Assembly: GCF_000455345.1 (NCBI RefSeq)
Contig: NZ_HG315690.1
Location: 943,742-1,007,741 of the forward strand
Direction of reading: 5' to 3'
DNA length: 64,000 nt
Source: Halopiger goleimassiliensis
GTDB taxonomy: Archaea; Halobacteriota; Halobacteria; Halobacteriales; Natrialbaceae
In this document: positions 15,067 to 50,524 of the stretch, piece by piece
How positions within the stretch are numbered: the first letter of the stretch is position 1
Layout of the letters: each line of letters starts with the position of its first letter
Notes under the pieces: generated by a model
Told to the model about the DNA's origin: nothing
Databases searched by the model: none
The model's input: only the letters and a program-made list of their open reading frames with translations
Made by a program: the position numbers and the translations under genes

Positions 15067-15248
15067 CGTGGGAGGATTCGACCCCGTGGCGAGTCCACGG
15101 TTCGCTCGACGGTTCGCTCCGCTCGCCGGCTCGTTTCGCGGGCGTGACGGGATTCGAACCACGCGAACGGCTCGCTGCGCTCGCCGTTCTCTCATTCGAA
15201 TCCCGCACGATCCGTTATCGGCCTCGCTATCGCTCGGCACGATAACGG
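15067..15248. repeat. Cluster of tRNA 3'-end-like copies alternating with hairpins
   Basis: Bases 15067-15086 and 15140-15163 each resemble the 3' end of the adjacent tRNA-Arg (T-arm core GGATTCGA; 16 of 20 matches for the first copy). A third, inverted T-arm copy lies at 15195-15205. Between them are hairpins: 15084-15100 (CCGTGG/CCACGG), 15165-15189 (GAACGGC/GCCGTTC) and 15212-15248 (CCGTTATCG/CGATAACGG), the last reaching into the real tRNA. Eleven-base arms 15148-15158 and 15195-15205 enclose the middle hairpin. There is no ORF here with acceptable codon use. Confidence 0.7.
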
Positions 15249-15318
15249 GCGTGGCGGGATTCGAACCCACGATCAGAAGGTTAGGAACCTCCTGCCCTCT
15301 CCGCTAGGCCACACGCCC
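15246..15318 (-). tRNA. tRNA-Arg (anticodon CCU)
   Basis: Read on the minus strand, a 7-bp acceptor stem (GGGCGTG with CACGCCC), a D arm, a 5-bp anticodon stem (GGAGG with CCTTC, one G-U pair), a 7-base loop TTCCTAA and a T arm GTGGG-TTCGAAT-CCCGC can all be drawn. The loop places CCU at positions 34-36, so it reads the arginine codon AGG. The discriminator base is G and CCA is not encoded. No intron is present. Confidence 0.93.
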
Positions 15319-48488: not shown

Positions 48489-50459
48489 ATGGGAGTCGAC
48501 AATATCAACACCATCGCAGTTCTCGGTGCAGGGAATATGGGCCACGGCATCGCGGAGGTCGCCGCGATCGCCGGCTACGACGTGAACATGCGGGACATCA
48601 AAGAGGAGTTCGTCGAAAACGGGTACGAGCAGATCGAGTGGTCGCTCGACAAACTCGCCGAGAAGGATCGGCTGAGCGAGGAGGAAGCCGAGGCCGCCTT
48701 GGAGCGCGTCACGCCGCTGGTCGACATGGAGGAAGCCTGTGGCGACGCCGACGTCGTCATCGAGGCCGTCCCCGAGCAGATGGAGATCAAGAAGGATGTC
48801 TACGGGGAACTCGAGGACGTCGCCGCCGACGACGCCATCTTCGCGACCAACACCTCGAGCCTCTCGATCACCGAACTCGCCGACGTGACGGAGCGCCCCG
48901 AGCGGTTCTGCGGGATGCACTTTTTCAACCCGCCGGTCCGGATGGACCTCGTCGAAGTGATCTCCGGCGCTGAAAGCGACGAGGAGACCCTCGAGACGAT
49001 CGAGGCCCTCGCCGAGGACTTCGGCAAGACGCCCGTCCGCGTCCACAAGGACTCGCCCGGCTTCATCGTCAACCGCATCCTCGTCCCGCTGATGAACGAG
49101 GCCTGCTGGCTCGTCAGCGAGGACGAGGCGACCATCGAGGAGGTCGACTCCACCACCAAGTACGGGATGGGCCTGCCGATGGGTTCGTTCGAACTCGCCG
49201 ATCTGACCGGGATCGACGTCGGCTTCCACGTCCTCGAGTACATGAACGAGGTGCTGGGCGATGCCTACGAGCCGAGTCCGCTGTTCGAGTCGAAAGTCGA
49301 GAACGAGGAACTCGGCAAGAAGACCGGCAAGGGCTTCTACGACTACGAGGACGGCGAGGGCGTCGACATCCCGACCGACCAGCAGTCCGACCTCGTCGAG
49401 CGACGCCTGCTGGCGACGATGGCCAACGAGGCCGCGAAGCTGATCGGGAACGACGTCGCGCCGCCGGAGTCGATCGACGAGGCAACGCAGTTAGGCGCGG
49501 GCTTCCCCGAAGGCCCCGTCACGCTGGTCGACGACTACGGCCTCGAGACGCTGCTGGAGACGCTCGAGAAAGCCTACGAGGAGACCGGCCACGAGCGCTA
49601 CGCTCCCGCCGACTACCTCGAGGAACGCGCCGCCGAAGGCGGCTTCTACGAACAGGAGACCGAAGAGGGCGTCTCCTTCGAGGTCATCCGCATCGAGTAC
49701 CCCGAGGAGTACGTCGCCCACGTCGTCATCGACCGCCCGCACCGGATGAACACGATCAGCGACCAGGTGCTCGAGGAGCTCTCGGAGGTGATCGACCTGC
49801 TCGAGGAGGACGACGAGGTGCGCGCGATCCTCGTCACCGGCGAGGGCGACCGCGCGTTCTCCGCGGGTGCCGACGTCCAGAGCATGGCCGGCAGCGGTGC
49901 CGACCCCCTCGAGGGCCAGGAACTCTCGCGGCTCGGCCAGCAGACGTTCGGCAAACTCGAGGCCTGTGATATGCCCGTCGTGGCCGGCATCGACGGCTAC
50001 TGTCTCGGCGGCGGGATGGAGCTGGCGACCTGTGCCGACCTCCGCGTCGCGACCGACCGCTCCGAGTTCGGCCAGCCCGAACTCGATCTGGGCCTCATTC
50101 CGGGCTGGGGCGGCACCCAGCGACTCAAACACGTCGTCGGCGAGGGCCGCGCGAAGGAGATCATCCTCACCGCCGAGCGCTTCGACGCCGAGACGATGGC
50201 CGACTACGGTTTCGTCAACGAGGTCGTCGACACGGACGAGTTCGAAGAACGTGCCCTCGAACTGACGGCCGACCTCGCCGGCGGCCCGCCGATCGCCCAG
50301 AAGTTCACCAAGCGCGCCTTCCTCGCCGGCCGCGACGACACGGAGTCCGGTCTCGAGTACGAGGCCTCCGCGTTCGGCCACCTGATGGCGACCGACGACC
50401 TCATGGAGGGTATCACGGCCTTCATGGGGGACGGTGAGCCGAACTTCGAAGGGAAGTGA
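48489..50459 (+). CDS. 3-hydroxyacyl-CoA dehydrogenase/enoyl-CoA hydratase fusion (archaeal FadB-like)
   Basis: 656 residues. Residues 1-290 form the NAD-binding hydroxyacyl-CoA dehydrogenase (AVLGAGNMGHGIAEV near 10; HFFNPPVRM near 142); 295-390 its C-terminal domain; 400-656 an enoyl-CoA hydratase. Hydratase residues are conserved: the oxyanion loop CLGGGMELATC with Glu and GQPELDLGLIPGWGG with Glu. This HCDH-then-hydratase order is the archaeal form, opposite to bacterial FadB. It performs steps 2 and 3 of beta-oxidation. The 3' end is partly duplicated downstream (see the repeat at 50434). Confidence 0.95.
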   Translation: MGVDNINTIAVLGAGNMGHGIAEVAAIAGYDVNMRDIKEEFVENGYEQIEWSLDKLAEKDRLSEEEAEAALERVTPLVDMEEACGDADVVIEAVPEQMEIKKDVYGELEDVAADDAIFATNTSSLSITELADVTERPERFCGMHFFNPPVRMDLVEVISGAESDEETLETIEALAEDFGKTPVRVHKDSPGFIVNRILVPLMNEACWLVSEDEATIEEVDSTTKYGMGLPMGSFELADLTGIDVGFHVLEYMNEVLGDAYEPSPLFESKVENEELGKKTGKGFYDYEDGEGVDIPTDQQSDLVERRLLATMANEAAKLIGNDVAPPESIDEATQLGAGFPEGPVTLVDDYGLETLLETLEKAYEETGHERYAPADYLEERAAEGGFYEQETEEGVSFEVIRIEYPEEYVAHVVIDRPHRMNTISDQVLEELSEVIDLLEEDDEVRAILVTGEGDRAFSAGADVQSMAGSGADPLEGQELSRLGQQTFGKLEACDMPVVAGIDGYCLGGGMELATCADLRVATDRSEFGQPELDLGLIPGWGGTQRLKHVVGEGRAKEIILTAERFDAETMADYGFVNEVVDTDEFEERALELTADLAGGPPIAQKFTKRAFLAGRDDTESGLEYEASAFGHLMATDDLMEGITAFMGDGEPNFEGK

Positions 50460-50524
50460 GGCGAACGTCGAACGGCTCGCGATGCGAGCCGTTCGGAAGT
50501 GAGCCGGAGTTCGAAGGGAAGTAA
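50434..50524. repeat. Duplicated gene end flanking a perfect 12-bp hairpin
   Basis: The last 26 bases of the FadB-like gene (50434-50459) recur at 50499-50524 with 23 of 26 matches, each ending in a stop codon (reading EPNFEGK-stop and EPEFEGK-stop). Between them lies a perfect inverted repeat, 50469-50480 (CGAACGGCTCGC) and 50484-50495 (GCGAGCCGTTCG), with a 3-base loop. It could act as a terminator and looks like an inserted element. Confidence 0.75.

Follow-up and report, generated by a model that had tools for sequence, protein, structure and literature searches.

The window, that is, the whole 64-kb stretch of DNA that was analysed, contains a fadB-type gene whose 3' end is repeated downstream of its stop codon. 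The features of this locus are listed below.

48489..50459, + strand: host gene for a bifunctional 3-hydroxyacyl-CoA dehydrogenase/enoyl-CoA hydratase of 656 aa (open reading frame; Pfam 3HCDH_N, 3HCDH, and ECH_1), with the stop codon TGA at 50457-50459
50434..50459, + strand: copy A, the final 26 nt of the gene including the stop TGA
50460..50468, + strand: linker GGCGAACGT 3' of the stop, found in other genera as GGCGA(A/C/G)CGT after the stop
50469..50495, + strand: hairpin CGAACGGCTCGC-GAT-GCGAGCCGTTCG, with perfect 12-bp arms and the 3-nt loop GAT; its homologue in relatives is CGAAAGACGAGCGNAGCGAGTCTTTCG, in which base pairs have changed on both sides
50499..50524, + strand: copy C, a second fadB gene end, with the stop TAA

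Copies A and C were identical at 23 of 26 positions, and a third, weaker copy of the gene end was present at offset 22 (17/26). Both the repeated gene end and the perfect inverted repeat were therefore as the preliminary description had reported them. It had also placed the hairpin exactly between the copies; the hairpin does lie between them, but 9 nt after copy A and 3 nt before copy C. The linker together with the gene end can be folded as a hairpin with tandem G.A steps. Across the whole 64 kb, the fadB hairpin was the sole perfect inverted repeat with arms of at least 10 and a loop of 3-8. Furthermore, local direct repeats (at least 20/22 matches, 40-260 nt apart) formed 6 clusters in the window compared to 0-1 in third-order Markov shuffles, the control being computed without the CRISPR array and N runs.

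An ordinary terminator hairpin with a chance similarity beside it would be the simplest reading, and hairpins upstream of 3' ends are known from Haloferax volcanii, where one gave 59% termination (PMC7237163). This reading is very improbable here, as the duplication exceeds that in shuffled sequence, other genera have it at the same position, and the window sequence contains no T-run after the fadB hairpin. A C-terminal extension by frameshift was also rejected, because copy C is out of frame with the gene (offset 65; 62-65 in relatives) and most fadB orthologs that lack the unit have the same terminal residues.

A second gene in the window carries a related arrangement, with an additional inverted copy of the gene end.

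15246..15318, - strand: tRNA-Arg(CCT), the other gene in the window that hosts a unit
15212..15245, - strand: hairpin HP1, starting from the tRNA 3' end
15195..15206, - strand: A', the tRNA 3' end copied in inverted orientation, GCGGGATTCGAA, exact over 12 nt
15165..15189, - strand: hairpin HP2, GAACGG-CGAGCGCAGCGAG-CCGTTC, with a GA/GNA motif on the sense strand
15139..15158, - strand: repeat of the final 20 nt of tRNA-Arg in direct orientation, 19/20

The likeness between the fadB hairpin and the hairpin beside tRNA-Arg, noticed in the preliminary description, is real, since a search of the own genome at up to 3 mismatches matched only the fadB site and 15164-15190. Beside tRNA-Arg, too, the hairpin has a copy of the 3' end of its gene on either side (21/24). 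The claim that the duplication belongs with the hairpin was borne out, and the combination recurs at tRNA-Arg and at many other genes. Across genera, the tRNA-Arg unit kept its layout, and HP1 and HP2 were swapped for other types from a small vocabulary. The tRNA-Arg units that were folded gave RNA-fold z-scores of -2.4 to -7.1.

The anatomy of the unit is A - HP1 - A' - HP2 - A, where A stands for the terminal ~20-40 nt of the host gene and A' for the inverted copy of A. In the stretches and loci of the own genome that were sampled, most tRNA genes have such a unit behind them, and hairpins with gene-end copies stand behind a few protein genes. Specifically, for 24 of 41 tRNA genes, the gene's own terminal 20 nt occurred again 79-237 nt downstream with 16-20/20 matches, a count that leaves out one tandem tRNA pair. 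The scores were bimodal, and nearly all other tRNAs stayed at or below 12 (mostly 10-12). The upstream control for such copies gave nothing beyond the one tandem pair. When one tRNA at 15/20 was added to the 24, an exact inverted copy of the T-arm of at least 8 nt lay between the direct copies in 22 of these 25 units, compared to 1, 0, and 0 in the controls. The tRNA-Arg of the window belongs to this set. The mean exact match of the inverted copy was 9.7 nt versus 5.1-5.2 nt in the controls (against downstream sequence, p=7e-9). The sequences of A and A' were gene-specific at the tRNA units, and A' had diverged further than the downstream A.

The copies begin near tRNA nt 53/54, and this is one point for reading them as remnants of integrase attachment sites, left by elements that integrate at the 3' ends of tRNAs and other genes. 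Archaeal integrases favour tRNA 3' ends (PMC8371274) and leave tRNA fragments behind (PMC9897764), which also speaks for this origin. Even so, it appears quite unlikely. The spacers are just ~80-240 nt and contain nothing but hairpins and an inverted copy, the majority of the tRNAs of a single genome are affected, hairpins are swapped, and protein genes also serve as hosts. The sampling of related genomes described below counts against it as well.

Several neighbouring arrangements were also observed. Upstream of a tRNA-Gly gene (L276 16100-16330; G000:C1:1316316), copies of the tRNA 5' end (GCGCCGGTGGT) occur with GA/GNA hairpins, so gene 5' ends may be copied too. A dense intergenic hairpin cluster without an obvious gene-end copy is located at L279 15050-15800 (G000:C1 about 2315050-2315800). 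A CRISPR array with the repeat GCTTCAACCCAACAAGGGTTCGTCTGAAAC and a period of ~64-69 nt is located at L273 19067-20000 (G000:C1 about 119067-120000). In another genome, three tandem tRNA-Gly copies of ~143 bp were found (L207/L220; G017:C1 about 1401086-1401450), and in two of the three a hairpin replaces the tRNA 5' end.

The tRNA units share a recurrent hairpin vocabulary and were confined to the class Halobacteria among the sampled Halobacteriota. The A'-spacer-A signature, defined as GGATTTGAA-N20-50-GTTCAAATCC, was present in 27 of 33 sampled haloarchaeal (Halobacteria) genomes and in 0 of 164 other Halobacteriota; the reversed-pattern control gave 0. This distribution is hard to align with attachment-site remnants, as integrases are widespread. 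A stricter form of the signature was found in 56 of 145 class members, and 15 of 20 named haloarchaeal genomes were signature-positive, e.g., Haloferax sulfurifontis, Haloarcula amylolytica, and Halorhabdus amylolytica.

The apical hairpin motif common to the units is C-GA-RC-GNA-GY-GA-G, which can be read as a GNA triloop capping tandem G.A pairs. The DNA d(GCGNAGC) is an unusually stable mini-hairpin. Within 300 nt downstream of tRNAs, all 23 occurrences of the motif were on the sense strand and 0 on the antisense strand. Its density was 1.8/kb downstream of tRNAs versus 0.03/kb in the sampled genome, and an AG-AG control gave 0. As a plain inverted repeat looks alike on both strands, this bias indicates a single-stranded, sense-strand function. 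Above the gathering score, Rfam 15 matched only tRNA in the loci searched (L240, L249, L243, L033, and L034).

At the fadB site, the unit was patchy among relatives. The linker and hairpin, usually with a second gene-end copy, stood right after the fadB stop in ~18 of 90 sampled Natrialbaceae from 10 genera, and the unit was absent from this site in the remaining ones. Where present, it includes GGCGA-CGTCGAA, and offset 65 was found in several genera. A second fadB copy of at least 18/24 was found in 8 genomes, compared to 0 in a control stretch further downstream. More distant genera had second copies as well: Halorussus aquaticus (20/24), Halostella pelagica (19/24), and Halomicrococcus gelatinilyticus (21/24), the last with an inverted part in between. 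The hairpin showed covariation, with pair 4/22 as C-G or A-T and pair 6/20 as G-C, A-T, or G-T, and pairs 8/18 and 9/17 alternated between Watson-Crick pairs and tandem G.A. In three genomes (L056, L040, and L168; G120, G094, and G018), the hairpin apex contained a longer insert with nested hairpins.

Three pairs of near-sister genomes were filled and empty at fadB, respectively (G092/G088, G131/G126, and G023/G066). In all three, the flank after copy C in the filled genome corresponded to the flank directly after the gene in the empty genome; G023 was filled but without the hairpin. A rough count on the fadB tree gave 15 gains or losses, at least 7 of them on well-supported branches; this tree rests on 130 residues and is poorly resolved, and the filled and empty labels are rough, the automatic ones including the probable false positives L192 and L201 and missing L186. 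Kept in several and in distant genera and yet divided among near-sister genomes, the fadB unit is old or recurrent at that gene, and labile.

These pairs bear on the idea in the preliminary description of an element that duplicated its target on inserting at the end of the gene, taken here as a small, mobile hairpin of the transposon or MITE kind. The direct copies that flank the hairpin and the contiguous flanks of the filled and empty alleles agree with such an insertion, and hairpin-free alleles do exist in G088, G126, and G066. However, an empty allele does not prove insertion, as had been proposed, because recombination between the direct copies yields the same allele. The exact hairpin is not dispersed; it occurs at only two sites in 3.9 Mb (up to 3 mismatches), which gives no support to a hairpin transposon family as such. 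The duplications, at 20-42 nt, are long and variable, and the same offset in several genera points to an old shared state. Furthermore, the gene-specific inverted copy between the direct copies at tRNAs counts against target-site duplication, which yields none. A mobile hairpin is therefore an unlikely source of the units.

At least two protein genes, of the fadB type and the purH type, are hosts of such gene-end copies and hairpins. In the own genome, the last 42 nt and the stop of the purH-type gene (AICARFT/IMPCHase) are present three times with a ~131-bp period and GNA hairpins (L337; G000:C1 about 1385320-1385640). Arrangements related to this array were also seen in G020 (L217) and G141 (L218). 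In other genomes, the fadB hairpin of the relatives was found beside tRNA-Phe, tRNA-Gly, a tRNA-like 3' end, and a purH-type gene; at the first three sites, a repeat of the 3' part of the gene came immediately after the hairpin.

The units are recognised as a class because of the tRNA statistics. The fadB feature of the window has a second copy of its own 3' end downstream with a hairpin between, and it is placed in the class by this anatomy, by the hairpin type in relatives, and by the same hairpins at tRNAs of other genomes. Against its membership, A' at this site is a short and doubtful candidate, the clearest A' at fadB being that of Halomicrococcus (L076), and the hairpin of the window is plain Watson-Crick without the GA step.

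Inverted triplication by template switching, or ODIRA, gives the order A-A'-A with inverted repeats at the junctions. We favour, at roughly even odds (about 50%), the reading that haloarchaea have a class of 3'-end repeat-hairpin units with a fold-back origin, turnover by recombination, and selection on the sense strand. The units were probably formed by local fold-back or template-switch copying. A nascent strand would fold back at the gene end and copy A into A', and a second fold-back would copy A again, giving an inverted triplication on a very small scale, with a hairpin at each turn. Recombination between the direct A copies could then raise or lower the number of copies or eliminate them, and would produce the empty alleles, the tandem growth at purH, and the near identity of the downstream A to the gene. 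Hairpin modules may be exchanged between loci via T-arm microhomology. The greater divergence of A' than of the downstream A would not be predicted by a single triplication without gene conversion.

A selected function most likely lies in the 3' region of the transcript, as judged from strand bias. The GA/GNA hairpins would be selected as a single-stranded structure of the sense strand, most likely in the RNA of the 3' trailer or UTR, and would affect 3'-end formation or stability there. The fold z-scores are strong for the unit of the window (-4.1) and for most tRNA units, but their weakness for most fadB orthologs counts against the favoured reading.

In a related reading, the RNA would act as a switch, in which A, A', and the second A pair alternatively (1:2 versus 2:3), A' joining either the tRNA 3' end or the decoy copy, and couple tRNA folding or processing to 3'-end formation. 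The three-segment layout is kept across genera with exchanged hairpins, and the strong folding and sense-strand bias would also fit. However, T-rich trailers may stop transcription before A', many genomes have no unit at a given tRNA, and A' at fadB is weak; we consider this switch rather unlikely. The broader proposal that the units are undescribed, class-wide haloarchaeal A/A'/A arrays at most tRNA genes and some housekeeping genes, with interchangeable GA/GNA hairpins, whose switch senses the correct folding of the gene product during 3'-end maturation and which are renewed by fold-back copying, is offered only tentatively as a less probable reading than the unit class itself. If it were true, A' would pair with either the true gene end or the decoy copy.

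A regular, gene-specific structure behind ~24 of 41 tRNA genes, class-wide in haloarchaea and not present in the sampled members of related classes, has apparently been overlooked so far, and no earlier description of the 3'-end repeat-hairpin pattern was found in the open-access literature. It raises testable questions on the function of tRNA trailers, on transcript 3' ends, and on template-switch copying of gene ends. Fragments of haloarchaeal tRNA 3' ends are not necessarily integration scars.

Several known systems resemble the units in part. REP elements and REPINs with RAYT transposases (PMC3733652, PMC2817692) are likewise short extragenic palindromes with single-stranded folding at gene ends. 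However, REPs are many copies of one sequence, whereas in the units the flanking sequence repeats the adjacent gene and few copies of the exact hairpin exist; the copy number of REPs was not found, and of the REP feet GTAG and CGTC, CGTC precedes the hairpin at fadB but not at most other loci. The PATEs and small mobile repeats (SMRs) of Haloquadratum (PMC3119063) are also haloarchaeal, transposase-free, and palindromic, with SMRs of ~80-110 bp. They show no target duplication and no gene-specific ends, and SMRs mostly target other mobile elements. PATEs and IS200-IS605 derivatives are expected to have near-terminal palindromes around a core and to lack target duplication, whereas flanking duplications are the main feature of the units. 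Archaeal attachment sites at tRNAs (PMC8371274, PMC9897764) share the tRNA 3'-end repeat downstream of the tRNA, but these repeats bound integrated elements, and their descriptions mention neither an inverted copy nor a pair of hairpins in between. Triplications of the ODIRA type (PMC11790251, PMC10766186) are large, sporadic, and described from eukaryotes, whereas the units are ~20-40 nt, recurrent, and clade-specific. The hairpin terminators of Haloferax (PMC7237163) are sense-strand hairpins downstream of genes, as here, but gene-end duplication is undescribed for them. Thus, REP elements, PATEs, SMRs, MITEs, attachment sites, and hairpin terminators each share one aspect with the units, and each either fails in its own defining feature here or is without the gene-end copies that characterize the units.
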